Assembly (NCBI GenBank): GCA_011056555.1
Contig: DSEQ01000047.1
Span: 62,001 to 126,000 of the forward strand
Length of the DNA: 64,000 nt
Reading direction: 5' to 3'
Source of the DNA: Candidatus Zixiibacteriota bacterium
GTDB taxonomy: Bacteria; Zixibacteria; MSB-5A5; JAABVY01
In this document: piece by piece, positions 47,690-63,585 of the stretch
How the letters are laid out: every line of letters starts with the position of its first letter
Position numbering within the stretch: the first letter of the stretch is position 1
Notes under the pieces: generated by a model
What the model saw: the letters and a program-made list of their open reading frames with translations, nothing else
Told to the model about the DNA's origin: nothing
Database searches by the model: none
Program-made: the position numbers and the translations under genes

Positions 47690-49363
47690 TCAATTTTTCC
47701 TTAATTTGAAATTGATTTCTACATCTTCATCTGCACCGATATTTATAAGCTTATATCCGCCCACAGTTTGATAACCGTCACGAACCACTGCAATTTTGTG
47801 AGGGCCCTCTGCCAGGTCAAAGGCAAACGGCGTTCCCACATCCTGCTTCTTCCCGTCAATATAAATCTCACCCCATGAGGACTCACCCCCGATAAAACTG
47901 GCTGAGATACGCACCTTTCCCGTAGGAGCAGAAAAATTATATTCCCGCGACTGCATTTTCTCCGTGACTGTGACAGTGTCAAAGAAGCTGGCATTATTCC
48001 AATCCGCGTCATTGTTTACCAGAAGAATCTCATGCCTGCCCGGTTTCAACGTATCCAGATATACAGGTACATCATCATAGGGAATCTTCGTTCCGTCAAT
48101 ATAGATTTCGGCGGCATTGTTATAATCATAAGGGGCATAATAAATTTCCAGTTTGCCGTTATACCTTGGTGCAGATTCGGCCGCCTGCTGAGAAACCTGC
48201 TGGCCTTGCTCATCTGAGGAAGGGTCAGATACGGCCGGCTCACCGGTCTTCCCATCGGCGGAGGAGAGGACTGTGTCCTGCTGTGCGTTTTCTGTCGGAC
48301 CGCTTTGTTCTTCTGTTATGGCCCTCTGCCCCCCCGGTTTCAATGCAAACTGATAGGCGATAAAAAGAACCACCACCACCGCAATCGCTGCAGCCAGGAT
48401 CAATATCGGCCGGGGACCTTTCTTTGTGGGGGGCTGCTCAAATACAGTCTTGTCTGAATCCTCGTTACGGATCTGCGTACTCAGATTTGATTCACGGTCA
48501 AAGGCCGCGGCCGCCAGAGTCGCCTCGTCATCGGCGGGCAGGTTCGCACCTCTCTGAAAATCCGCGATCTTCTGGGACATCTCCTGGGCCGACTCAAAAC
48601 GGTTCTCCGGCTCTTTCTCGAGCGCCCGCAGGACAATCTCTTCCATCCCCCCTGGCACATCCCTACGAATATCGGATGCCCGGGGCGGAGCTTTTTCCAT
48701 ATGGGCTTTCATCAGAAGAAAATCAGAATCCTCTTTAAAGGGAAGTTCCCCGGTAAGCATCTGGTACAGGGTTATGCCGGTGGAATACAGGTCGGTACGG
48801 TAATCAATATCCTTCCGGCCCCGAATCTGCTCCGGGGACATATACGGCAGGGACCCTGCTGCTGTTCCGGTCTGGGTCATTTTTTGCGCCCCCAGTATCT
48901 TCGCAATTCCGAAGTCAGTTATTTTCACCAGGCCGGATTCGGTAACCATTATATTGGAAGGTTTGATATCCCTGTGTATGATTCCGTTGCGATGCGCATA
49001 TCCGAGCGCCGAAAGAAGTTGTCGTGCTATCATTGCTGTGTCCTGTACAGAAAACGGCCCCTTATCGCAAATGATCTCATCCACGTTCCTGCCGTCCACG
49101 TATTCCATGATGATGAAATGCATATCATCAATGACTTCAAAGTCGTAGATGGTTACGATATTGGGATGATTGAGCTTGGCCATAGCCTTGGCTTCCCGAT
49201 GGAACCAGGCGGAAAATCTCTCTTCCGAGGCAAGCTGGCTGTGCAGCAGCTTGAGAGCAATTTCACGTTCGATCATGGTGTCGAAGGCCCTGTAAAGTAT
49301 GCCGAATCCGCCTTCGCCGCGCTTTTCACGCAATTCGTATTTTCCGATTCTTTTTGTGTCCAT
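47690..49363 (-). CDS. Serine/threonine protein kinase with TM segment and extracytoplasmic PEGA-like repeats
   Basis: GEGGFGILYRAFDTMIEREIALKLL, IIHRDIKPSNIMV, DFGIAKILG; TM ILILAAAIAVVVVLFIAYQFAL; PEGA-like GEIYIDGKKQDVGTPFAFDLAEGPHKIAVVRDGYQT. Confidence 0.95.
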   Translation of the reverse strand: MDTKRIGKYELREKRGEGGFGILYRAFDTMIEREIALKLLHSQLASEERFSAWFHREAKAMAKLNHPNIVTIYDFEVIDDMHFIIMEYVDGRNVDEIICDKGPFSVQDTAMIARQLLSALGYAHRNGIIHRDIKPSNIMVTESGLVKITDFGIAKILGAQKMTQTGTAAGSLPYMSPEQIRGRKDIDYRTDLYSTGITLYQMLTGELPFKEDSDFLLMKAHMEKAPPRASDIRRDVPGGMEEIVLRALEKEPENRFESAQEMSQKIADFQRGANLPADDEATLAAAAFDRESNLSTQIRNEDSDKTVFEQPPTKKGPRPILILAAAIAVVVVLFIAYQFALKPGGQRAITEEQSGPTENAQQDTVLSSADGKTGEPAVSDPSSDEQGQQVSQQAAESAPRYNGKLEIYYAPYDYNNAAEIYIDGTKIPYDDVPVYLDTLKPGRHEILLVNNDADWNNASFFDTVTVTEKMQSREYNFSAPTGKVRISASFIGGESSWGEIYIDGKKQDVGTPFAFDLAEGPHKIAVVRDGYQTVGGYKLINIGADEDVEINFKLRKN

Positions 49364-49477: not shown

Positions 49478-51499
49478 TCAGTATGCAAGGCAAGGCGGAG
49501 GCTGACCGCCGACAAATACAAAATTGATTATAAACACAGCATCCGACACATTTATATTATCGTCACAATTTGCGTCACCCTGATATAATTCCGGCCGGGG
49601 AGGCTCTCCCCCGACAAATGTAAAATTGATGATCCAGACCGCATCGCTGACGTTGATAGTACCGTCATTATTGGAATCGCCATTGAATCTGACAATATAC
49701 ATGGGCAGGGAATCTACACCAAAGGCGACGCTGTCTTTATGAGAGGTCGCAGTGAGAATGATGTTATTAACTGTTCCCGGCAGGAGATCGGGCCCGGAGA
49801 GAATGTCAGCCGCGACCATAACAGAATCTTTAACTGGAATTGTGAAAAGGGTGTCATGAAGCTGGCAGTCCCATCCCATTTCATCACTGATAGTCATGTG
49901 ATAGATGTCCTGGTTCGAGCCGCGGTTGTAGACCCAGAAATTGACTGTCCTGGGGCCCATGGAATATATATCATACGGCCCCGCGTCCCTCACATCCGCA
50001 GCGTAATCCGGCCAGGGAAGCAGCTGGGCGGAATAGACATAATCTAGACCCTCCCCATACCAGGATCTTACAACCGGATTCAATATTATATAGTCATAGT
50101 TTTCAATCTCGGATACTATCAATGATCCGGCGTAAGCTTCGTTTAATGGGATTTCCATAAACGTGTAGTTGTTGTCCGGCTCTGCCAGAATAACATTCGC
50201 ACTCCAGTGATAGCCGTCCTGGCCATCAAAGTGTATCAGGAATTCTCCGATTACATCTCCAAATTCAGCAAACTTAATATAGTTCGCTCCCAACCCGTGC
50301 GGACGCATGGCAGAAGGAGGATGCATATTGCTGACCGGGTAGAATGAAATAGTCCCGATCAGATCGACTGTCTCAGGATAATCCCATCCCTGTTCGTAAT
50401 GGTTACCATCATCATATATGGAGGTGCACCAGTTCCAGGCGGCAAATTCCCCGAAGGCATCATAGAGATTAGAGCCATAGCCCAGCAAGGCTGTGTTAAT
50501 GGCGGTATAAACATCATCATTATATATCAGGTTTTCCCAGATGCTTTTAATCAGCGTTGTATCGAAGTTATGATCCAGGAATCGGTTCCAGACAAAGGCT
50601 CCGTAATCATGGTAGTAAGAGCTGTCATTTAATGGCAGTTGTGGATAGTCGAAGAAACACCAGAGATAGTTGTAATTGTCATTGACCTGGGGATAGCAGA
50701 TTTCCTCCATCCAGCAGGAGGAGACCTCCATATACCAGACCTCGCTCAAGAGATTGTAAGCCATCTGAGTCGCGTGGAAGTATTCATGCGCACAGGTGAC
50801 CTTTGCGGCGCCCTTCTCGAGCCCCTCCGGATCATCGTTGGGAGGGAAATCTATAAAGTTTCTGTGTACCACCATATAACTGATCCAGTCATCCCATGCC
50901 TCCGGCCCGGGGCTTTCGGGCTGAGTATAGCCATAATAGGGCATCTCCATAAGATAGATATCGTAAAGTGAATCACCGCCCTCGCTGCCGTCTGAGGGCG
51001 GATATAGGTAAGCTAAATTACCATGCATGCACCTGTATGAACTGTCACTGTAATGGGCGACGCAGTCCACATAATCGGGGATCCCGTTGAACGGATCGAC
51101 ATCGGATGAATCGACTGCATGAGCGCCCTCGATATTGTAGTGAATCCGGAAATACCCGTCGGGACTTAGGGCTGAAAAGACCATGTTCGGCCTTCCGAGA
51201 TAATTGTTGAGGATTTCCTGCTCCGGCCCGCTCAGTCGCTCCAAATTCAGTCTGGCCTCGATCATAATTTCTGTTGCTGATTTCAGCTTGACATCCGGCT
51301 CGAGCCTGAATTCCTCGGGCAATCTTTCGGGGGCGTGAACGGTCATGACCTTGTAGATAATCTTCTCTCCGAGACTGATCCGATTCTCGGCATAGGCAGT
51401 TTCGATCTTGTCAACCGGGGAGCTTTTTGCAGACAGGCTGGCAGCGACAAATAATATCGCGGCAGAAAAGATGAATATCTTAAAGATATTGCTTTTCAT
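49478..51499 (-). CDS. MXAN_6640-like putative metalloprotease with C-terminal dockerin pair
   Basis: VTCAHEYFHATQMAYN (HExxH); FNGDSNNDGTINVSDAVWIINFTFVGG..YQGDANCDDNINVSDAVFIINFVFVGG. Confidence 0.88.
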   Translation of the reverse strand: MKSNIFKIFIFSAAILFVAASLSAKSSPVDKIETAYAENRISLGEKIIYKVMTVHAPERLPEEFRLEPDVKLKSATEIMIEARLNLERLSGPEQEILNNYLGRPNMVFSALSPDGYFRIHYNIEGAHAVDSSDVDPFNGIPDYVDCVAHYSDSSYRCMHGNLAYLYPPSDGSEGGDSLYDIYLMEMPYYGYTQPESPGPEAWDDWISYMVVHRNFIDFPPNDDPEGLEKGAAKVTCAHEYFHATQMAYNLLSEVWYMEVSSCWMEEICYPQVNDNYNYLWCFFDYPQLPLNDSSYYHDYGAFVWNRFLDHNFDTTLIKSIWENLIYNDDVYTAINTALLGYGSNLYDAFGEFAAWNWCTSIYDDGNHYEQGWDYPETVDLIGTISFYPVSNMHPPSAMRPHGLGANYIKFAEFGDVIGEFLIHFDGQDGYHWSANVILAEPDNNYTFMEIPLNEAYAGSLIVSEIENYDYIILNPVVRSWYGEGLDYVYSAQLLPWPDYAADVRDAGPYDIYSMGPRTVNFWVYNRGSNQDIYHMTISDEMGWDCQLHDTLFTIPVKDSVMVAADILSGPDLLPGTVNNIILTATSHKDSVAFGVDSLPMYIVRFNGDSNNDGTINVSDAVWIINFTFVGGEPPRPELYQGDANCDDNINVSDAVFIINFVFVGGQPPPCLAY

Positions 51500-51767
51500 G
51501 CGGATTCTCCGGGGCGAGACATCAGATACAGGGCTCCAGTAATAACATCCAAGGCCGTTAATGCATACTTAAGTATATCGGCAACATAGCCTTTGTTCCT
51601 GAATGTATAAATTTTGCAAGTATAGAAGCAGGAACATCTTACGTTGATAAAGATAATGAAATGGCAGATTTTGTCAATTCAAAAAGGCTCTGCGGTATTT
51701 GACAAATTTTATACAGTTCCCCGCTCGCCCCCGTTATCTGTGCAGTCAGGCTGTATAATTCACTGAC

Positions 51768-51950
51768 TTAAGCCGAAAACTGCCTTTTCTCCCCGTTACG
51801 CCTGAAAGAAATCAAACCAAACTCGCCGGCCAGTATTTTATTGCTTATGCTCACAAATTCTGAGCCGCTAAGACATTGCAGGGCATAGGGGTGGATAATC
51901 TTCTTTTCGATCAACTTGGCCTGGCTGTAGTCAAAACTCGCTGAAGTCAT
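51768..51950 (-). CDS. Microprotein A (novel paralogous family)
   Basis: Start re-placed to MTSASFDYSQAKLIEKKIIHPYALQCLSGSEFVSISNKILAGEFGLISFRRNGEKRQFSA, preceded by ggaaggaggtcgcc; shares YxLQ..N[KR]IL with 52512..52676 and 60147..60286. Confidence 0.7.
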   Translation of the reverse strand: MTSASFDYSQAKLIEKKIIHPYALQCLSGSEFVSISNKILAGEFGLISFRRNGEKRQFSA

Positions 51951-52020
51951 GGCGACCTCCTTCCGGGAGGCGGCTAAGGTTACGTATGAGTCCTCAATAA
52001 ATAGCTTTTTGACATACACC

Positions 52021-52443
52021 TCAGGCCCTTATTTTTTTCCTTAATTTCTTGATTGCGCGCCACTTATAAATATTGACCACCTGCTGGGTAATGCCAAGTC
52101 TGGCGCCGATTTCCCTCTCCGTTAGCCCCTCTATAATGAGCTTTATGACCTGTTTCTGCCTTTCCGAAAGCGAATTCTTTATGTGCCAGTTGAGCTTACC
52201 AATAAACCTTCGGTCGAAAGCCTTTTTTTCCACCTCGAAATGGGTCTGATGATAGGCCGACCTCTCGTTGGAAAATGTATTTATCAGCTCGGGATCGAGC
52301 GAAATCTCTGCATACAGATACTCTTTCCTGCTGGGCATTCCATAATATAAGAAGAAATCCGGCTGATGGGACCTAAATAACGGATTAATCTGATTTTTTT
52401 GCATGATTTTAACTATTTCCTTATAAAAAAATGGCTTAAACAT
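52021..52443 (-). CDS. Helix-turn-helix (sigma-70 region 4/LuxR-like) putative regulator
   Basis: LSERQKQVIKLIIEGLTEREIGARLGITQQVVNIYKWRAIKKLRKKI. Confidence 0.78.
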   Translation of the reverse strand: MFKPFFYKEIVKIMQKNQINPLFRSHQPDFFLYYGMPSRKEYLYAEISLDPELINTFSNERSAYHQTHFEVEKKAFDRRFIGKLNWHIKNSLSERQKQVIKLIIEGLTEREIGARLGITQQVVNIYKWRAIKKLRKKIRA

Positions 52444-52511
52444 CGTTTAATTGACAGAAACGATGCACTCTGGCATTTGAATCAAAACACCTTGTTTCTT
52501 GAGAGGGTTAT

Positions 52512-52676
52512 ATGTACACACCAAAGCGATCCAATTTGAGCGGGGTGAAATCCAGACGCTCATGGGCCCTATATCGTTTGCAGAGCATACCTCCTTCCAA
52601 GCTGGCGACAGTAGTTAACCGAATTCTGCGAGGGGATGATTATCTCTTCAATTCTCTTGAGCGCGAAACAAAGTAA
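52512..52676 (+). CDS. Microprotein B (same family; absent from ORF track)
   Basis: Manual translation MYTPKRSNLSGVKSRRSWALYRLQSIPPSKLATVVNRILRGDDYLFNSLERETK*; gagaggg upstream. Confidence 0.6.
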   Translation: MYTPKRSNLSGVKSRRSWALYRLQSIPPSKLATVVNRILRGDDYLFNSLERETK

Positions 52677-52770
52677 TTTCGCTGGATTTCTTCTTGCGGC
52701 TTTTTATTATTCTGATTGGATGAAAAAAAACTTGCTACGCACCTGAATAAGTAATCCGGGATATATTGCC

Positions 52771-52805
52771 AAATAAAAGCCCGCTGACTTTTCATCCAGC
52801 GGGCT
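52771..52805 (-). terminator. Rho-independent terminator (minus strand) for 52833..55994
   Basis: agcccgctg acttttcatc cagcgggct, TTTTATTT on minus. Confidence 0.85.
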
Positions 52806-52832
52806 AATCTTTTGTATTCTACTGATTATTAA

Positions 52833-55800
52833 TCAGCAGTCCGGCTCTCCGTTGCCATCAGTATCGCAGGGAGCACTGCCACCCACGAAAACATAATTGA
52901 TAATCCATACCGCATCGCTGACATTAACAGTAGTATCACAGTTGGCATCTGCTGATGCCAGTGGGTCGGGCTGCGATCCTCCGACAAAGACATAATTAAT
53001 GATAGTGACCGCATCGCTGACATTGACAGACTGGTCGGAATTTGCATCGCCGCAAATATAGCCCGGATTAATCTGCATGCCCAGAAGCTTGGAGGTTTTA
53101 CTGCCGGTCTCATCCTGCACCTCGGCCCAGAATCCTTCCGGGCCCTCATTTAGCGGCACACCCGACAGCAGACCATCCTCTGAAAGGGTCAGGCCGCTGC
53201 CCTCAAGACTGCTGTATTTATCGCTCCATAATTTGTCACCGGTTCCGCCGGTACAGGTAAGCTGGTAGCTGTAGGCTTCGCCGACTTTGCCGTCAGGCAA
53301 TGTATCCTGGACGATTGTCAGACTCGGATTGACGGTGAATTCAAAGTCCTGCGTATCGTCCGCGCCAACGGCATCTGCGGCCCGTGCGGTAAAGTGTATT
53401 ATGCCGGCTGCGGATGGTACACCCGATATGATTCCTGTGGCAGAGAGTGTCAGACCGGTACCATCCAGATCAGAATTCACATCACTCCAGACCAGACTGC
53501 CGGTTCCTCCCGTGGCGCTGAGCTGCTGGGAATATGTTCGGCCCTGGGTCCAGTCCGGAAGAGTGTCCTCCTGAATTTGAACAACGGGATTGATTTCAAA
53601 GCTAAACTGTTTTTCATCAGTCTCACTGGCGGCATCGGTTACCATTGCGGTGAAGGTTATGGTGCCGGTCACAAACGGCAGTCCTGAAAGAAGGCCGCCG
53701 CTCGCCAGAGACAGACCGGTTCCCTCGAGATCATCATACTTATCGCTCCAGGTCAGCGCGCCGGTTCCGCCGGTCGCTTCCAGCTGCTCTGAATATAATA
53801 GTCCAAATGTCCAGTCGGGTAATGACAGAGTTACGATTTCGGGAACGATGCTCATGGGCGGGAACACTATCATGTCCACCCAGGCGCAATCGGAACCTGT
53901 GGATTGACTTCCGTCCTTAGTATAGGCCCATTTGAATGTGTGCATTCCGGGATCGACGCTGAAACTGACCTGTGCCCAGGGATCCTCCCCGGACCATTTC
54001 TGCTGCTCGACATCATCGATATAGAACCTCAAATAATCCCATCCTGATTCGGACGAAACCCTGTAGTAGAAACTGATCTCACCCCCCGAGAGCACTTCTG
54101 CCGAGAGCTCCATGGATGAGTTTTGATTATGTGTGATGGTCCCCGATTTTGCGGAATAGACGCCTTCATATACATTCGTGGTTACGGCCTGCCAGCTGGC
54201 GCTGCCGCCCATAACCCAGGGATACTGGGTGAAACCGCCGCTTTCGAAGTCCTCTATCTGCTGCCCGATCATCAGGTCGAAGAATATGCTGTCGGTGTAG
54301 CCGCCGTCGGCAGTAACATCCATCCTGAACGGCGCCAGGTAATTGATTGGACAGGAGGAATCGATATCGAACTGATACTGGCTGTTCGACTGCGCGGTCC
54401 CGCCCAATGCCGCGATGGTCGGATAGCTTGAGATTGACTGGGTGATTGTGATATAGGGATCATCCGATGAAAGAACACCGCTGGTGTTGTATGCTATGCC
54501 GGCCCCGTAGTTTATCAGTGTTATATTGGCCACGACATTATCACCCGGGTCAAGCGTGCCTCCGCTATGTGAGACATAATCGAGGAGAGGGATATTCGGC
54601 AGAGGAGTCATGGCAACATCAACACGGTTCGTCTGCAGATTGACTACAGTAATAGAATATATAGTATCGATATAATAGCCGGGGGCGGAGAATTCCAGGT
54701 CGTAGGTTCCGGCTTCAATCATACGATGGTAATCACCGACCTCCGGATCGGTATAGACCATGGAACTGTCCGTATCGCTGTCATGGCCGATTACCCTGAC
54801 CATAGCGTGCACCGGCAGACCGGTATTGGCGTCCGTGACAACACCGCGGATGCCATACAGGGCCTGCTCGAGCCAGTCCAATAATGATACTCTCAGGTAT
54901 CCCCACCAGGCCGGAAGCTGGCTGGCAGGGAGCAGCTTTGTGCTGGATATTTCCATGGTTACTTCGCGGCTGTCGTGGAAATAATTCATGTAATCCTGGC
55001 GCCCGCCGGAAATTGAATACCAGGCATAGCCATTCGTAATGCCATTGTTCAGGTCGGTCAAATAGCCCGAGGGGCTGTAGTATTGCGCTGAATCTGCAAA
55101 CTGCCTTGAGATATCGACATACCATTGATTGTCGGCATGAAGTGCAGCCCATGTATCCCAGGGATAATTTACGACTTCCGCGCCGCCGTGGAAGTTAGCG
55201 CCGATGACGAAGCTGTGGGCTTCCGCGAAATCCATCATGGCCTGGGTTTCAACCTGACGAGTGCCTCCGGGATAGGGGCCGTCCTCAGGATCGGGAAAAT
55301 TACGGTTCAGGTCGTAGCTATTGGCGTTGTAGCGCGTAGCCCCATAGACGGAGTTATCTCCGCCGGCATAAGTTCCATCCGGATTGGCGAGCGGATTAAT
55401 CCAGATTTCGCAGCTGTCCACCAGCCGCGTAATCAGTGAATCTGTACCATAGGCAGTCAGCAGAGAATCTGCCAGGCGGAGCATCAGCACATAGCCGGCG
55501 GTCTCGTCTCCATGGATGGTGGCGGAATACATCACCTCCGGCTCGTCTTCCTCAACCCCCACATTGTCGGATATCTCCAGAAACAGCAGCGCCCTTCCCT
55601 CAACCGTAGTACCGACATTATGCACCTGGCACAACGAAGGGTAATCCAGGGCAAATTGATTCATCATGGAGACATAGCCGGAGTAAGTCGGATATACATC
55701 CCATTCCAGAATATCGGCTTTATCTGAGGACATCTCGGGCTCGATCAAGGTTCCCGGATGCGGCAGGATTTCATAGCCATAGCCGTATTGCTCAAATTCG

Positions 55801-55994
55801 GCCAGTTCTTCTTGATTAGCATAGGCATAGACCGTCAGGCCCTCGACATTATCGATGGAAATCATGCGGGAAAGCTTTTCCAGCATTTCTTTAGAGTCGA
55901 TTTGAAATTTGAAATAGACCTCAGTAGATTTAGCCTGAATCGCCCCCAAAAGGAATAGTATTATAACTGGAATGATAATGTAAAGCTTTTTCAT
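52833..55994 (-). CDS. M14 family zinc carboxypeptidase with putative-Ig repeats and C-terminal dockerin pair
   Basis: SATIHGDETAGYVLMLRLAD, NPDGTYAGGDNSVYGATRYNANSYDLNRNFPD, VTMEISSTK; three LPDWTxGxxYSxQLxATGGTGxLxWSD repeats; ICGDANSDQSVNVSDAVTIINYVFVGG..ADANCDTTVNVSDAVWIINYVFVGG. Confidence 0.94.
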   Translation of the reverse strand: MKKLYIIIPVIILFLLGAIQAKSTEVYFKFQIDSKEMLEKLSRMISIDNVEGLTVYAYANQEELAEFEQYGYGYEILPHPGTLIEPEMSSDKADILEWDVYPTYSGYVSMMNQFALDYPSLCQVHNVGTTVEGRALLFLEISDNVGVEEDEPEVMYSATIHGDETAGYVLMLRLADSLLTAYGTDSLITRLVDSCEIWINPLANPDGTYAGGDNSVYGATRYNANSYDLNRNFPDPEDGPYPGGTRQVETQAMMDFAEAHSFVIGANFHGGAEVVNYPWDTWAALHADNQWYVDISRQFADSAQYYSPSGYLTDLNNGITNGYAWYSISGGRQDYMNYFHDSREVTMEISSTKLLPASQLPAWWGYLRVSLLDWLEQALYGIRGVVTDANTGLPVHAMVRVIGHDSDTDSSMVYTDPEVGDYHRMIEAGTYDLEFSAPGYYIDTIYSITVVNLQTNRVDVAMTPLPNIPLLDYVSHSGGTLDPGDNVVANITLINYGAGIAYNTSGVLSSDDPYITITQSISSYPTIAALGGTAQSNSQYQFDIDSSCPINYLAPFRMDVTADGGYTDSIFFDLMIGQQIEDFESGGFTQYPWVMGGSASWQAVTTNVYEGVYSAKSGTITHNQNSSMELSAEVLSGGEISFYYRVSSESGWDYLRFYIDDVEQQKWSGEDPWAQVSFSVDPGMHTFKWAYTKDGSQSTGSDCAWVDMIVFPPMSIVPEIVTLSLPDWTFGLLYSEQLEATGGTGALTWSDKYDDLEGTGLSLASGGLLSGLPFVTGTITFTAMVTDAASETDEKQFSFEINPVVQIQEDTLPDWTQGRTYSQQLSATGGTGSLVWSDVNSDLDGTGLTLSATGIISGVPSAAGIIHFTARAADAVGADDTQDFEFTVNPSLTIVQDTLPDGKVGEAYSYQLTCTGGTGDKLWSDKYSSLEGSGLTLSEDGLLSGVPLNEGPEGFWAEVQDETGSKTSKLLGMQINPGYICGDANSDQSVNVSDAVTIINYVFVGGSQPDPLASADANCDTTVNVSDAVWIINYVFVGGSAPCDTDGNGEPDC

Positions 55995-56369
55995 CTGAAA
56001 CTTCCTAAGTTACTTAGTACCAAGTTTGTATGTATAACGTGCAGTATTTTCGAGCACAAAAATGTACTGACTCCGCTTCCCAAGATATATATGTTAAAGA
56101 TAATCGCTTTTAAAATTCTGTCAATAAGCTAAAAGATGATTTTACTCTCAATATTGGCCAATAAAGCCCTTATTGTTAATATACGCAATCAATTAAAATA
56201 TCGGCAGAAAAGCTCTCACTTCCATGACCTTAAAATCAATAATTCCGCCGCAGGGAATATGGTCTCAACAGAAAACAGAATCCCTTTAGCTGGATCAACT
56301 CATATCCAAAACGCCAAGGCGATACAGATTTCCTGCAGAGTTTATCTAAATGCGGATTAAAGCGAAAGA

Positions 56370-56504
56370 TCAATCAGGGAGAGCGATAGCCAATGCGGTC
56401 AGGGCAATCGCGGCAAAAAATGACTGCAGTTGAATCTGCCTGGCCTTTTCCATCAGCATTTTCCTGAAACTTTCATCCTCGATCGGTTCCGGACCATCAT
56501 CCAT
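56370..56504 (-). CDS. Small single-TM protein (44 aa)
   Basis: Manual translation MDDGPEPIEDESFRKMLMEKARQIQLQSFFAAIALTALAIALPD*. Confidence 0.5.
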   Translation of the reverse strand: MDDGPEPIEDESFRKMLMEKARQIQLQSFFAAIALTALAIALPD

Positions 56505-56534
56505 ATTTCTCGCACCCTGCGAAGCCAGCGCCAC

Positions 56535-56723
56535 TCAGGTTTTCTCTTTGTATTGAAGGAACCCGATTGTGGCCATCATAAACGGTATGAACAGAAATAA
56601 CCTCCACCAGCGGCTCAAATCGACAGCGATCATAGTCAACAGCAGCAGGACCGTGATTACAAATGCGGCTATGCCGAATGCCAGGCGTTTGCGGCTTTCT
56701 TTCGGCCCGATATTGCGAACCAT
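56535..56723 (-). CDS. Small membrane protein, two predicted TM segments
   Basis: MVRNIGPKESRKRLAFGIAAFVITVLLLLTMIAVDLSRWWRLFLFIPFMMATIGFLQYKEKT. Confidence 0.65.
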   Translation of the reverse strand: MVRNIGPKESRKRLAFGIAAFVITVLLLLTMIAVDLSRWWRLFLFIPFMMATIGFLQYKEKT

Positions 56724-56800
56724 TGCAGAAGACTCCCTCTTTTAACGAACAATAATCCAATTTAAGCGGATAAGAATCGATTTCAATATTAAAACATAAA

Positions 56801-56836
56801 CAAAAATGCTGAAGTCCCGGATTTCGGGACTCCAGC
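56801..56836 (-). terminator. Rho-independent terminator (minus strand)
   Basis: tgctgaagtcccggatttcgggactccagca hairpin, ATTTTTGTTT on minus. Confidence 0.8.
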
Positions 56837-56867
56837 ACTCAGGCAAGGAAGTTGCAAAAAGTGATTA

Positions 56868-57731
56868 CTATAGACTTTCAGCTAACTCAAAGTCCACAGA
56901 ACCCATACTAATATCTATATCAAAGTCAAGATGCCCCTTTTTGGAATCATAATCTCTGGTCTGATAGACACCGTCTTTCACCTTCTCGAAATCATCCGGA
57001 ACTCCCACGCTCGAGGTCCAGTCCTCTGAATAGTGAATCTTCGTTCCCATATTATGATTGAGTTTGATATTGGTCGAACTCATTCCGGCATCGAGGGTGA
57101 CATTGCCGTCAAAGACCAGTTTTCCGGAAAAGTCCAGATCGAACGAGGCCATGCCGGCATCAATTTCAAGATTTTCGAAATTAGCGTTGCCGAAGCCATA
57201 GCACTCAAACGAGCTCTTGCCGGCATCTATGCTGAAATCCTTTATACGGCCTTTATTGGGTTGGTTAAATATTATGGTACCGGAAGCCATGCCGATATCC
57301 ATTTCGAGCCCGGTAATCTCCAGCCCGCTGAAATCGAAATCGGCCTCGCACATGCCGGCGTCAACAGCAAGATCCATTGGGACCATATCCCCCAACAGCA
57401 CCTCCCAGCTATTCTCTGATCCTTTGTTCGAGAAGGTAAACGATCTCTTCTTCTGCTCGATTTTCATTATAAGAGTTCCCACATCCCCCTCTTTTTGATA
57501 CTTGACGGTAACCTCAAACAGATCGGCATCATACTCGCCGTTGATCCTGGCGATATAGTTCCCGGTTCCCCGGGCGAGTTTAAGTTCCGCCATGCCGAAA
57601 TCCATCTCGACATTGAGAAATTTTTCGCCTTCAAAATCAATTGTCCTGGTGTAGACCTGGTTATCGGCGTCCGCCAGAAGGCCGGAGCTGAAGGCCAGAA
57701 TGGTTAATATTGTCACTGCAACTTTCCGCAT
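56868..57731 (-). CDS. Toast-rack/DUF4097-like secreted beta-repeat protein
   Basis: Signal peptide; repeating VEMDFGMAELKLARG / LAVDAGMCEADFDFSGLEITG / LEIDAGMASFDLDFSGKLVFDG / VTLDAGMSSTNIKL motifs. Confidence 0.8.
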   Translation of the reverse strand: MRKVAVTILTILAFSSGLLADADNQVYTRTIDFEGEKFLNVEMDFGMAELKLARGTGNYIARINGEYDADLFEVTVKYQKEGDVGTLIMKIEQKKRSFTFSNKGSENSWEVLLGDMVPMDLAVDAGMCEADFDFSGLEITGLEMDIGMASGTIIFNQPNKGRIKDFSIDAGKSSFECYGFGNANFENLEIDAGMASFDLDFSGKLVFDGNVTLDAGMSSTNIKLNHNMGTKIHYSEDWTSSVGVPDDFEKVKDGVYQTRDYDSKKGHLDFDIDISMGSVDFELAESL

Positions 57732-57826
57732 AATCTCCCTCCATCGGTTGAGAAAATAGTCTGTAAATTTAATTTTATTTACGGCGGTACTATGGAAATG
57801 TTGCGGAAAATTGGGGGAGGATATTT

Positions 57827-59002
57827 TTAGCTGTCGATTTCGGGCTCAAGGACTTCAATTCCCGCGCTTTCTTTTTTCTCAAACCTCGGTTCAAGCCGGA
57901 CTTTTTTCGGACGGGTGCCGAAACGCGAAAAGAAGACACCGCCCAGGCCGGCGGTATACATGATAAACTGCTCGGACCAGAACAGGATCTGGAGGATCCA
58001 GGCCAGCGGCCAGATGTTAATAAAAGCGAAGAATGCGGAAAAAATAAGTGGGCTCCCGAGCAGAATTGCGCCGGCCAGCGTGGTACGGATATACCCGGGA
58101 TAACGCAGAGTAGAATGCTGTCCCAGTTGAAATCCAGCAAACTGGGTGAAGCCGATTGCGCCAATTATGAAAGCGGCGATAACGACGAATGGATAGACCA
58201 GGAGCGCCACCGGGATGCCGATGATGCTGATCAGGATCAAGACCCAGATCGGAAGCAGCGCAATAGTCAGGAGCACACCGATCAGGAAGCATTTGACGAA
58301 GCCCTCTTGAAGCTGTATGCGAATGCGTGCCACGGGCCGGGGCATGACTGCGGTCACGCTGGCCACGATCAAGAGGATGGCTGCCAGAGAAATGACCATC
58401 ACGATCATGGCGGGCGGCCCGACAAATTGCAGGTCGGCAAGATTAAGATTGATCCGTTCATAGCGCCCCTTGAAATCATAAACAGTCTCATCGACCGGAC
58501 GCTGAAATTCCATGGAGGAGATATTTCCCCAGACCATTGTGCCCGAATCGAGCACAACCTCGCCCAGGCATACAATTTCACCCTCCACATTGGCCCCGGG
58601 GCGTATCCTGATATCACCGAAAATCACGAATATGTCGCCTTTGACATATCCCCTGATCTCCAGGTCGCCGCCAAGTACGACCACTTCCCCTCTTACTGAA
58701 TCCGCAACATCGATCAATTCGTTCTTGCCGAATGTTATAATGTCGTTGCCTGCCGAAAAGACTTTGCCGCGGCCGTCTCTTTCCACCGCCCGCAGAATAA
58801 GTGTATCGCTGCCGTCATCATAGTTTATCTCGATGCGCTCCCTGGAAATGTCTATTTCCACGGCTTTGCGAAGTGTATCGGCCATGCCCAGTGAATCCGG
58901 CGCCAGCTCCTCCTCCTCATAGGCATAAACAGAGGGGCCCGACACCAGCATCAAAACAAGTGTCAGAAAGAGTATCTTTTTGAAGTTCCTGGCAATCATC
59001 AT
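57827..59002 (-). CDS. Polymer-forming (bactofilin-like) domain membrane protein
   Basis: VRGEVVVLGGDLEIRGYVKGDIFVIFGDIRIRPGANVEGEIVCLGEVVLDSGTMVWGNI followed by multiple TM segments. Confidence 0.85.
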   Translation of the reverse strand: MMIARNFKKILFLTLVLMLVSGPSVYAYEEEELAPDSLGMADTLRKAVEIDISRERIEINYDDGSDTLILRAVERDGRGKVFSAGNDIITFGKNELIDVADSVRGEVVVLGGDLEIRGYVKGDIFVIFGDIRIRPGANVEGEIVCLGEVVLDSGTMVWGNISSMEFQRPVDETVYDFKGRYERINLNLADLQFVGPPAMIVMVISLAAILLIVASVTAVMPRPVARIRIQLQEGFVKCFLIGVLLTIALLPIWVLILISIIGIPVALLVYPFVVIAAFIIGAIGFTQFAGFQLGQHSTLRYPGYIRTTLAGAILLGSPLIFSAFFAFINIWPLAWILQILFWSEQFIMYTAGLGGVFFSRFGTRPKKVRLEPRFEKKESAGIEVLEPEIDS

Positions 59003-59053
59003 ATAATCCTGTACTAAAGCAAACGTATCGGCAGAGAGGATGTTTCTTCCGCT

Positions 59054-59644
59054 TCAGGCCATTTTCAGTTTCTTTTTCAGGAGCTCACGGGCGCGGAAAA
59101 TCCGGGCCTTAACAGTTCCAATCGGAATCCCCATTATACGTGCAATCTCTTCATACGATTTATCATCATGGTGACGGTAGATTATCACCTGTTTGTACTT
59201 CGGCGGGAGGCCCTCGATCGCCTCCTCGATTGAAATGAGCTTCTGTTTGCGAAGAAGATGCTCCTCCGGGTTGGCCCCCTTGTCCTCCAATTCAACCTCG
59301 ACCGCGCCGTTTTTAGTCTGATAAGGCTTATCCATGGAATAGGCCTTGATCTTCTTCTTACGCAGATAGTCGATCGAACAGTTGGCCGCAATCTTGCACA
59401 GCCAGGTGGAGAAACGGTATTCGGAACGATAGCTGTACAGCGTATTGAAGGCGCGCATAAAGGTCTCCTGAACCAGGTCCTGAGCATCATCGCTGTTTCG
59501 TATTATCTTCACGACAATGTGGAAAACAGTTTTCTGGTAACGATTCAAGAGGGCCTGATAAGCGTCCTGCTCACCGCTTAAAGCGCTCTGAATCAACTCT
59601 TCATCCGTTGGATGCTGTTCTTTTCTTTTTATCTTTCCCGGCAT
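59054..59644 (-). CDS. RNA polymerase sigma factor, ECF-like
   Basis: NSDDAQDLVQETFMRAFNTLYSYRSEYRFSTWLCKIAANCSIDYLRKKK; GLPPKYKQVIIYRHHDDKSYEEIARIMGIPIGTVKARIFRARELLKKKL. Confidence 0.95.
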   Translation of the reverse strand: MPGKIKRKEQHPTDEELIQSALSGEQDAYQALLNRYQKTVFHIVVKIIRNSDDAQDLVQETFMRAFNTLYSYRSEYRFSTWLCKIAANCSIDYLRKKKIKAYSMDKPYQTKNGAVEVELEDKGANPEEHLLRKQKLISIEEAIEGLPPKYKQVIIYRHHDDKSYEEIARIMGIPIGTVKARIFRARELLKKKLKMA

Positions 59645-60146
59645 CTCACTCCCGAAAAATTTGCCTTATAATAATTATTATCAAGCGGTTAAACAATTAA
59701 AATCTTAATCCGGCATTAGCAAGGGAATAAATTTATACATGACAGTTTAATCTGTCGGAGATAAATTCAGGCGGATCTAAACCGCAAGCATTATTATAAG
59801 CGCAAAAAACTTATCATTGGGAGATTCATCTCAACCCGAAATATCCCGCAGGATATAGTTTTTCTACCTTTAATATAACAGCCGACAATACGTTTTTTTC
59901 CAAATTTTATGGGCTTTTTCCTATAAAAAAAGACGGATTCTGAAATATACTAACAAAAGACTTTCACGCGACGATCCTAATCGACTGCAATCCAATGAAA
60001 TAGTCCAACGCAAACTGTGCAGTATCTGGACAGTCCGACGGCATTCTCCATGCTTCATTGTCAATTGCGAATAAAGATATATTCAGAATTGCCGAAGTGT
60101 TGGAAAGAGGGCTATTCCTGCATTTCGGCAGGAAGGGTCCTTAGAG

Positions 60147-60286
60147 TGGGTAAGAAAAAGAAAGATAGTTACAAGATGCCGAAAAAGACTTATTGGCATC
60201 TGTATTCACTGCAGACACTGAACACGGAGAAGTTTGTGTCGGTTGTCAATAAGATTTTGAAGCATGAGTTCTTTGTGATCAAATGA
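60147..60286 (+). CDS. Microprotein C (novel paralogous family)
   Basis: GTG start after ggaaggg: VGKKKKDSYKMPKKTYWHLYSLQTLNTEKFVSVVNKILKHEFFVIK*. Confidence 0.6.
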
Positions 60287-60393
60287 ATGGACCGAGAATT
60301 CGAATTTGTGCTTGACATTGAAATTGTGTTGCCATATCATTACCGAAATTTTATTGACAGGAATGATGCATGGAGGCAATACAAGGTGAAAAT

Positions 60394-61314
60394 ATGAACG
60401 GCAAAAAATATTCCATAATTATTGTTCCCTCCAGCGGAGGGAAATCACTGCAGTTCTCGATTTCGGGAATGTGGCTTTATGCTGCTGCCGTTGTTGTCCT
60501 GGCTGTATTTTCCGTTAATGCTTTCTTCACCTATGGCTTCTTCGCCAAATCATACCAGCATCAAACAATAGCAAATTTGATCGAGGAAAACGAATTCCTG
60601 ATCTCGCGTGTTTCCTACTTCTCCTCCGAGATAGAGAATCTGAAAGAGGACTACTATTTGATGGTGGACAAGGAGAAGGAGCTGCGGACGATTTTCAATC
60701 TGCCCATGGTGGATGATCAGGAAAGGGCCCTGGGTATCGGCGGGCCGGTCTTCTCTTCCGAGGAAAAGCTTAGCAGTGCCAGGCAGATCACCTACAATAC
60801 TGAGAACAGGCTGGATGAACTCGTGCGCCTCTCCTCCTTCGAAATCGAGCAATACGATACGATCTACAATGCCTTAATAAATAAGAAAAAGGACCTTGAC
60901 CACACGCCCTCAATTATGCCATCTTCCGGATATATTACCCGCGGCTTCGGGGTTCGCCCCGATCCATTCACCGGAATCAAACGTATGCACAGCGGAATCG
61001 ATATCTGCAACCGTGAGGGCACACCGATTTATGCCAGCGCCAACGGCAGAGTCAAGTCGATCCGCAGGATGGGCCATCTTGGTATCACCCTGATCTTGGA
61101 TCATGGCAATGGTATCGAAACATATTATGGGCATATTCTCAAGGCCACCGTAAATCGCGGGCAGACCGTTAAACGCGGCGACAAGATCGCCGAGATGGGC
61201 AACAGCGGACGATCCACCGGACCTCACCTTCACTATGCAGTCAAGACCAAGGGTAAATGGGTCAATCCCATGGACTACATCCTGAATCAGAACTGGCTTG
61301 CAGATATTAATTGA
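60394..61314 (+). CDS. M23 family metallopeptidase (cell-wall endopeptidase)
   Basis: TRGFGVRPDPFTGIKRMHSGIDICNREGTPIYASANGRVKSI; GIETYYGHI; GNSGRSTGPHLHYAVKTKGKWVNPMDYI. Confidence 0.96.
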   Translation: MNGKKYSIIIVPSSGGKSLQFSISGMWLYAAAVVVLAVFSVNAFFTYGFFAKSYQHQTIANLIEENEFLISRVSYFSSEIENLKEDYYLMVDKEKELRTIFNLPMVDDQERALGIGGPVFSSEEKLSSARQITYNTENRLDELVRLSSFEIEQYDTIYNALINKKKDLDHTPSIMPSSGYITRGFGVRPDPFTGIKRMHSGIDICNREGTPIYASANGRVKSIRRMGHLGITLILDHGNGIETYYGHILKATVNRGQTVKRGDKIAEMGNSGRSTGPHLHYAVKTKGKWVNPMDYILNQNWLADIN

Positions 61315-61660
61315 CAAATTCTCCGTTTTTTTATATTTTTTTTAGATAAACAGGATAGATTCTGTATTATCTTGGATATGCCCTATATTACGCAAAAAAT
61401 CCCCGTAGTCTGAAACATTGGGATTTTTATTTGTAAAAACCATGGAAATAATCTGGATTTGCGGATAAATATGTAATTTTCGAGATCTGCAAATCCGAAA
61501 GGAACAATGGGGAATCTTGAATACCAGCTATGATCTTCTCAATCTCCGGGGTTACCGAGACCATTTGGGGCCTTCATTGATTACGGGGATGCTGGAACTG
61601 TCTGCTGGGGCGATTGTTCTACTAAGTGGAACTCTGAATTGAGACTAGAAAGGTCGTATA

Positions 61661-62362
61661 ATGAAAATTAACAGGCCGGATAATTCGGGACCTGATAAAG
61701 ATAAAGATGAAACCAGGGGCCGCGGTCGTCCCAGGGGTAAAAAGAATGTTATCGATTCGAATGAAAAGTTCGAATACGAAACCATTCAGATTATCAAGAA
61801 AATCCGCGAGGGTGAAGACCTTGCCTTCAATGACCTGATCGAGCGTTATAAGCGCCAGGTGGCGGCGGTGGCGTTTCGGATGGTCGGCGATTATGACGAG
61901 GCCGAGGATATCGCCCAGATGGTTTTTGTGAAGACGGCCAAGAATCTGAACAAGTTCGATATTACCAAGAAGTTTTCCACCTGGCTGTACAGGATTACCG
62001 TCAATGCCTCGATCGATTTCATGCGCAAGCACAAGCGCCATAAACATGAGCTGATAGATAATTACTCCGAGTCGCTGGAGAACGAAGAGGACAACCCGGA
62101 GGAGATCCTGAACCGCAAAAAGCTGCGGGGGATCATCCTCAAGGCGGCGGACACTTTAAACGATAAGCAGAAGGCGGCATTTATTCTTCGTGATCTTGAG
62201 GGACATCAGATTGATGAGGTCTCGGAGATTCTGGATATGCCGGAGGCGACGGTCAGATGGTACCTGCATCGAGCCCGAATCCGTCTCCGCAAGGAGCTCA
62301 AACGCAATTACGGCGGATATCTTGGTGAGATTTATAATGTAAATGCGTTAAGCGGGAATTAA
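61661..62362 (+). CDS. RNA polymerase sigma factor, ECF-like, with charged N-terminal extension
   Basis: DYDEAEDIAQMVFVKTAKNLNKFDITKKFSTWLYRITVNASIDFMRKHKR; LNDKQKAAFILRDLEGHQIDEVSEILDMPEATVRWYLHRARIRLRKEL; N-term PDKDKDETRGRGRPRGKKN. Confidence 0.95.
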   Translation: MKINRPDNSGPDKDKDETRGRGRPRGKKNVIDSNEKFEYETIQIIKKIREGEDLAFNDLIERYKRQVAAVAFRMVGDYDEAEDIAQMVFVKTAKNLNKFDITKKFSTWLYRITVNASIDFMRKHKRHKHELIDNYSESLENEEDNPEEILNRKKLRGIILKAADTLNDKQKAAFILRDLEGHQIDEVSEILDMPEATVRWYLHRARIRLRKELKRNYGGYLGEIYNVNALSGN

Positions 62363-62385
62363 GCGGCGATTGAAATAGATTTTGT

Positions 62386-62419
62386 AGGGCGGGATCCCTG
62401 TGATCCCGCCTATTTTTTT
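62386..62419 (+). terminator. Rho-independent terminator
   Basis: ggcgggatc cctgt gatcccgcc followed by tattttttt. Confidence 0.88.
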
Positions 62420-62640
62420 GAAGGTCAAAACTCTGTGAGTTTTGACAGGTCGTCAAGGCAACCATTCAAGGTCGCCAGGAGCGGCCTTGATGTCGGACTT
62501 GACACTGGTACCCCACATGAAAATGTGGGTTTATTCGATCATCCTGCCATATCTGATCTTGAAAAGAGACATAGCAGGTGAATTCTCTTCGCCCACCTGA
62601 TAGGTGGGGTACAAATGTTCTTGAGATTGCAACTTAGAAC

Positions 62641-63585
62641 CTATTTCAAAAACGGGTGCGAGTTGGGATTGCGGCCGATGGGACGGGCTTCGCGGATGGC
62701 ATGCACCACCTCCACCGACGGGCGCGCATCCATGAGACCGTAACCGCGACCGGCCAGGGCTTCATGATACACTACCGTATGCAGATCGGTAAAGCCGCCC
62801 GAGAATTCTATCTCCTCGCCATCCATGGTAAGCGAACGGTAGGAAACCTTCCCCTGCTCTCTTGCATGACGCGGGAGATCATTCTTGTCAACAGAGAGAT
62901 ACCACCTCACACGGGCTTTTTCGAGTTCAAGATAGCCTGCAATCTTTGTGGACGTGGAAACATGCACCTCTTTTGACTCGACATTTCCAAATAGCCAGAT
63001 CAGCAGATCAAAAAAGTGAATACCGATGTTTGTGGCCAGTCCGCCCGACTGCTCGATCCTGCCCTTCCATGAGTAATGATACCAGGGGCCGCGCGGTGTA
63101 ATGTAAGTCAATTCGATATCGGTTTTGTCTTTGGGGGGATTATTTTTTAACTTCTCGCGCAGTTCTATGATCGATTTATGATGACGCAACTGCAGGACAG
63201 TAAATACCCGCTGTTCGCTTTCTTCTTCGAGATCCATCAGAGCGTCAATATTCCAGGGTTTGATCACAACCGGTTTTTCACAGATAGCATTGGCGCCTAC
63301 ACGCAATGCAAAGCGGATATGGGCATCATGAAGATAATTGGGCGAGCAGATGCTGACATAATGAACGCGGCTATCCTCGCCCTTATGACGCAGTTTCTCG
63401 ATATGGCGGTCGAAGCGCTCGAATTCATTGAAGTAGCTGACATTATCAAAGTACTGATCCAGAACGCCGACCGAGTCATGCGGGTCAACAGCGGCAACGA
63501 GAATATTTCCGGTGTCTTTTATCGCTTTCAGATGGCGCGGCGCCACATACCCGGCACATCCGATAATGGCAAAATTCTTAGGCAT
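62641..63585 (-). CDS. Gfo/Idh/MocA family oxidoreductase (WbpB/WlbA-like sugar dehydrogenase)
   Basis: MPKNFAIIGCAGYVAPRHLKAIKDTGNILVAAVDPHDSVGVLDQYF; AICEKPVVIKPWNID; GGLATNIGIHFFDLLIWLFG. Confidence 0.92.
   Translation of the reverse strand: MPKNFAIIGCAGYVAPRHLKAIKDTGNILVAAVDPHDSVGVLDQYFDNVSYFNEFERFDRHIEKLRHKGEDSRVHYVSICSPNYLHDAHIRFALRVGANAICEKPVVIKPWNIDALMDLEEESEQRVFTVLQLRHHKSIIELREKLKNNPPKDKTDIELTYITPRGPWYHYSWKGRIEQSGGLATNIGIHFFDLLIWLFGNVESKEVHVSTSTKIAGYLELEKARVRWYLSVDKNDLPRHAREQGKVSYRSLTMDGEEIEFSGGFTDLHTVVYHEALAGRGYGLMDARPSVEVVHAIREARPIGRNPNSHPFLK

Follow-up and report, generated by a model that had tools for sequence, protein, structure and literature searches.

A microprotein family of Zixibacteria linked to a LuxR/sigma-r4-like HTH gene, probably a lineage-specific regulatory part

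The window, a stretch of 64,000 nucleotides from a Candidatus Zixiibacteriota bacterium, carries the gene of a small HTH protein between the genes of two paralogous microproteins. Microprotein A (60 aa; 51768..51950, minus strand; MTSASFDYSQAKLIEKKIIHPYALQCLSGSEFVSISNKILAGEFGLISFRRNGEKRQFSA) starts at an ATG at 51950, preceded by the bases ...GGAAGGAGGTCGCC, and is encoded downstream of the HTH gene. Microprotein B (54 aa; 52512..52676, plus strand; MYTPKRSNLSGVKSRRSWALYRLQSIPPSKLATVVNRILRGDDYLFNSLERETK) is a divergent paralogue on the other side. The listing of open reading frames agrees with these three genes as they were first described. Both microproteins are also identified by family profile, dN/dS and their place in a paralogue tree, and A additionally by its linkage to the HTH gene. 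The start of the latter had been placed at 52443, leaving 69 bp to B. Because orthologues begin at the equivalent of MPSRKEYLYAE, a start at 52338 is more likely, and the extension that begins at 52443 is absent from most of them. The HTH gene would therefore run from 52021 to 52338 on the minus strand, encoding about 105 residues, and its gap to B would be about 173 bp.

The preliminary description of this locus as a pair of paralogues was incomplete. A search of the window's own genome revealed a third copy, microprotein C (46 aa, GTG start; 60146..60286, plus strand), confirmed by profile, dN/dS and tree, which is the most conserved copy throughout the phylum. The next gene encodes an M23 peptidase with an N-terminal hydrophobic, TM-like segment (60370..61314, plus strand; PF01551, 5.1e-31). 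In the window, C is bracketed by two genes for ECF sigma factors, both recognized by domain scan: its divergent upstream neighbor (59054..59644, minus strand) and a gene downstream of that for the M23 peptidase (61661..62362, plus strand). No further strong copy was found in the window's assembly (94.65% complete, 55 contigs).

Peptidases with dockerin domains are encoded on both sides of the HTH gene and its microproteins, namely an M14 peptidase (52833..55994) and, downstream of A, an MXAN_6640-family metalloprotease identified by domain scans (49478..51499, minus strand). Genes of similar appearance to the latter follow A in other genomes of the families f1 (that of the window), f2 and f6, and are seen downstream of A in loci L124, L125, L128 and L135; for this reason they could be targets or members of an operon. 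Downstream of the metalloprotease lies a Ser/Thr protein-kinase-like gene (47690..49363), with a similar gene in L124-L127.

The HTH protein resembles GerE/LuxR proteins and sigma-70 region 4 in its C-terminal half, which exceeds the Pfam gathering thresholds of both GerE (38 vs 23.5 bits, 1.3e-9) and Sigma70_r4 (33.3 vs 24.1 bits, 3.3e-8) and counts EvgA and EsrB among its nearest solved sequences. Contrary to those proteins, it shows neither a receiver nor an autoinducer domain, and no sigma region 2 was detected. Nor does it qualify as an ECF sigma factor, as TIGR02937 aligns with the C-terminal region only and scores below its cut-off (36.3 vs 42.9 bits), and Pfam finds no Sigma70_r2. The N-terminal segment is conserved among orthologues as REY.FAE...E.SAY, and no match was found for it. 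The HTH family is present in 76 of the 132 genomes of the phylum, as a single copy in all but one.

A and B are real coding genes under purifying selection. Against same-genus orthologues, A has a dN/dS of 0.14-0.29, B one of 0.07-0.11 and C one of 0.03-0.07 (two comparisons yielded no dS estimate), and the differences fall mostly at third codon positions. The motif first noticed in A and B is not a chance resemblance, since a profile built from C-type sequences, with neither A nor B included, recovers A, B and C in the window's genome at E <= 0.001. With the same profile, homologues are found in 127 of the 132 Zixibacteria genomes and in 77 of 78 good assemblies, in one to six copies per genome and with lengths of roughly 46-60 residues. 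A profile of A, B and C together matches 55 of 58 related genomes. The first description thus passed both checks set for it, homologues in other genomes and substitutions consistent with coding. One phylum genome that is 97% complete (G035) contains no copy detectable by profile search, which may reflect either a true loss or a gap in its assembly.

Beyond the phylum, a scan of 84,980 species genomes with two C-type peptide patterns, which would miss divergent relatives, gave no copy outside Zixibacteria, and the family seems, as far as these patterns reach, to be specific to this lineage. The scan confirmed 91 stretches, 80 of which are listed. Three of these loci (L075, L078 and L090) are labeled otherwise, but their contig coordinates match those of G097, G064 and G115 in the phylum search, and they therefore fall within the phylum according to the assignments of that search. 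For L091 and the loci with no more than "bacterium" as their title, such tracing is incomplete.

The consensus of C is M..KKRK...P.KTYWHLYSLQ.LN.EKFIKVVNKILK.EY.LIK. Over 135 copies, L23 and Q24 are invariant, and K15, W18, I38 and L39 nearly so. C-type proteins are basic, with a median net charge of +8 and a pI of 10.1. The Lys/Arg tail shows little conservation in A and B, and the receiver fusions described below have a short one; the conserved part is the LQ/NKIL core. The model that AlphaFold gives for a C-type protein (pTM 0.47; pLDDT 77 on average, rising to 88-89 over residues 21-40) has a beta-alpha-alpha-beta order, with a strand at 16-18, helices at 19-23 and 27-38 and a strand at 43-45. 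It gave no fold match in the PDB, where the best E was 3.3 and VIA returned nothing with Z >= 2, a comparison with little power for a 46-residue model of this pTM.

That the motif belongs to no recognized family, as initially noted, was borne out in the libraries searched. No family threshold was reached in Pfam, NCBIfam and PADLOC for the 69 members scanned (best E about 0.013-0.05), nor in PHROGs for three members (best E 0.19), and PDB sequences gave a chance match only. There was no match in phage and plasmid records; viral contigs gave no match to C and one distant match for the HTH domain. Rfam models found nothing at gathering score over 50000..63000, and a search of the open literature, to which subscription literature did not belong, found no papers on these proteins. 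The nearest candidate was HetP (NF037966), the cyanobacterial protein of heterocyst commitment, which is likewise a small protein of a regulatory pathway, and of which a 21-residue stretch resembling LTP.KF..VV.KIL.G.Y aligns with an E of 0.031 at best. However, the best match, of 13.9 bits vs a cut-off of 45, covers only positions 13-33 of 63, no relative passes the threshold, and control genomes score equally weakly. Homology with HetP was therefore rejected.

The linkage with the HTH gene, suspected from the window, is strong elsewhere. A microprotein is encoded on the same strand 77-297 bp downstream of the HTH gene in 29 of 30 fetched loci, the remaining one ending with its contig, and all 19 HTH genes in the 58-genome sample have a linked microprotein. 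These loci span many families and genera, and they are orthologous rather than independent events. A further partner, here called TM-CC, has an N-terminal hydrophobic segment, a coiled-coil-like middle (both labels being read from the sequence rather than predicted by a tool) and a conserved C-terminal motif, LP.DLS.YE+RVA..EI; the one member scanned passed no Pfam cut-off. TM-CC genes are present in 81 of the 132 phylum genomes and lie directly upstream of 62 HTH genes, all on the same strand and mostly 7-136 bp away. A microprotein is found within 1.5 kb in 29 of 30 fetched TM-CC loci, and TM-CC stands next to the HTH and microprotein genes in L137, L156, L160, L162, L163, L127, L142, L151, L158 and others.

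The order of these genes varies between families. Fetched loci of f8 and f17 show TM-CC, HTH and A in succession, and for f18 and f19 the pairing of TM-CC with the HTH gene is read off coordinates, the microprotein not having been fetched in each case. In f2 an inverted B stands between TM-CC and the HTH gene, which is followed by A. In f6 TM-CC lies near B, and the HTH gene and A are on other contigs. The window's own family, f1, has B, HTH and A, and TM-CC was not found there. Microproteins persist beside TM-CC without the HTH gene in f3, f15 and genus g35 of f8, which implies that the HTH protein is not their sole partner. Taken together, the simplest reading suggests an ancestral TM-CC-HTH-A operon with losses in individual lineages.

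Many copies are found in other contexts, and 38 of the 74 non-C copies listed lie near neither the HTH gene nor TM-CC. Downstream of C, the gene for an M23 peptidase is the next one on the same strand in 74 of the 80 listed loci, whereas the upstream neighbor varies; the gene F9, near M23, we take to resemble DUF523 from its sequences. Other paralogues follow Fur genes, assigned by Pfam FUR in L139 and L148 and by sequence resemblance in L152, and in L141 one lies ahead of genes for a histidine kinase and a protein that resembles a response regulator. In three genomes (L150, L154 and L157) a microprotein is fused to the N terminus of a receiver-like domain. The L157 fusion, which is the one tested against Pfam, matches PF00072 with 56.5 vs 30.2 bits (3.6e-15) and adjoins a gene rich in PAS domains. 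These fusions share their C-terminal part with response regulators, but carry the microprotein domain, which is N-terminal, instead of a known effector domain. Copies near hisS/aspS-like genes occur in f3, in L134 (4003..4485, two in tandem), in L143 and, fused to the receiver, in L150; this suggests that a receiver domain was gained or lost at one site.

A tree of 70 copies, in which C was subsampled, places each of C (99/90), B (97/75) and the receiver fusions (95/84) on one side of a branch and divides the A copies between two groups; its 50 columns do not resolve the deep branches. As A, B and C are separated, the possibility that B is a recent duplicate of A was discarded.

The leaders of these genes hint at translational control, as far as predicted structures go. 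The 24 bases before the start of A (51951..51974, minus strand; GCCGCCTCCCGGAAGGAGGTCGCC) are identical in three members of the genus, including a CCTCC complementary to the GGAGG in the ribosome-binding site. The predicted fold has a z of only -0.34, and it is through conservation alone that such pairing is suggestive. In the leader of C, a predicted hairpin (60107..60142, plus strand; z -4.6) pairs the ribosome-binding site. C leaders in general are more stable than shuffled sequences (mean z -0.89, vs -0.03 for other genes), and their ribosome-binding sites are more often paired, with a mean of 0.61 as against 0.46 in the background (Mann-Whitney p 1.2e-5, the sequences not being independent). 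Their hairpins in L010-L118 tend to pair this site, with sequences that differ between lineages. RNAalifold found no common structure on the alignment of C leaders, and a single conserved RNA element is therefore not claimed.

Short proteins that work with sigma factors or other transcription factors are known from other bacteria, such as RsoA, the partner of SigO/YvrI, and AbbA in Bacillus subtilis, or ComW in pneumococcus. The microproteins resemble them in being short and, as judged by linkage and fusion, associated with a sigma-like or DNA-binding protein, sometimes in the same operon; they differ in matching no library model and in having no sigma region 2. The linkage with HTH and TM-CC genes, the Fur and kinase contexts, the receiver fusions, the purifying selection and the separate lineages of the tree are best explained by a small adaptor of transcription regulators, a reading that we hold tentatively, at somewhat less than even chances, and in which we infer the binding, the direction of its effect and the signal. 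The domain, made up of a basic N-terminal tail, two helices, of which the short one holds the invariant LQ, and two short strands, would be a small protein-interaction module. Non-C paralogues would be dedicated adaptors. Each would bind the DNA-binding or receiver protein whose gene accompanies its own, with or without RNA polymerase, and thereby modulate the output of that regulator. Where the operon is TM-CC-HTH-A, coupling or restraint of the sigma-r4-like HTH protein would fall to the microprotein, possibly as a response to the membrane protein. For the lineage of the window, where TM-CC was not found, A and B would act from genes that flank the HTH gene on opposite sides. The broader form of this idea, a plug-in adaptor of transcription control used throughout the phylum with the TM-CC/HTH operon, Fur and two-component receivers, and whose core copy is encoded next to a cell-wall peptidase, is more doubtful. 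The commonest copy, C, precedes the M23 peptidase gene, so that the use with regulators may have come later, as a specialization.

This last fact, together with TM-CC, points to membrane-anchored proteins, and the microprotein stays where the HTH gene is absent. A partnership with the envelope is thus a serious, albeit unlikely, alternative: C would have the ancestral function, assisting the membrane-anchored M23 peptidase from the cytoplasm, the non-C copies would serve TM-CC, and the HTH protein would either regulate the operon or be no more than a common companion. The constancy of the M23 gene after C, against changing upstream genes, and the families with TM-CC and no HTH gene agree with it, but f1 keeps microprotein and HTH protein without TM-CC, and no envelope partner is obvious for the Fur-linked copies and receiver fusions. 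Slightly less probable again is an autonomous binder of nucleic acids, whose Lys/Arg tail would contact DNA or RNA; C might then use the leader hairpin to repress its own translation. The charge of C and the pairing in its leaders would fit such a role, yet the tail is the part that varies among paralogues while conservation sits in the core, and the leaders lack a common structure. Finally, the shortness of these frames, their frequent position upstream of larger genes and some hairpins at ribosome-binding sites could recall leader peptides or non-functional small ORFs; this is very improbable given the dN/dS values (0.03-0.29), the residues fixed across the phylum and the downstream, divergent and fused placements.

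Returning to the adaptor, the small regulatory module proposed in the preliminary description holds as regards the strong linkage to the HTH gene and proves too narrow otherwise, as C has no such HTH partner and other copies are found at TM-CC, Fur and receiver genes. What is new is the protein family with its operon; how it acts may prove familiar, a small protein tuning a regulator. A strongly constrained gene is present in nearly every genome searched of this phylum with no entry in the libraries consulted, and a size of 46 residues makes it easy for annotation to skip. Probably a regulatory part specific to this lineage, the family might also be used as a marker of Zixibacteria. Its conserved three-gene operon, the natural receiver fusion and the LQ/NKIL core offer a handle on gene regulation in an uncultured phylum.
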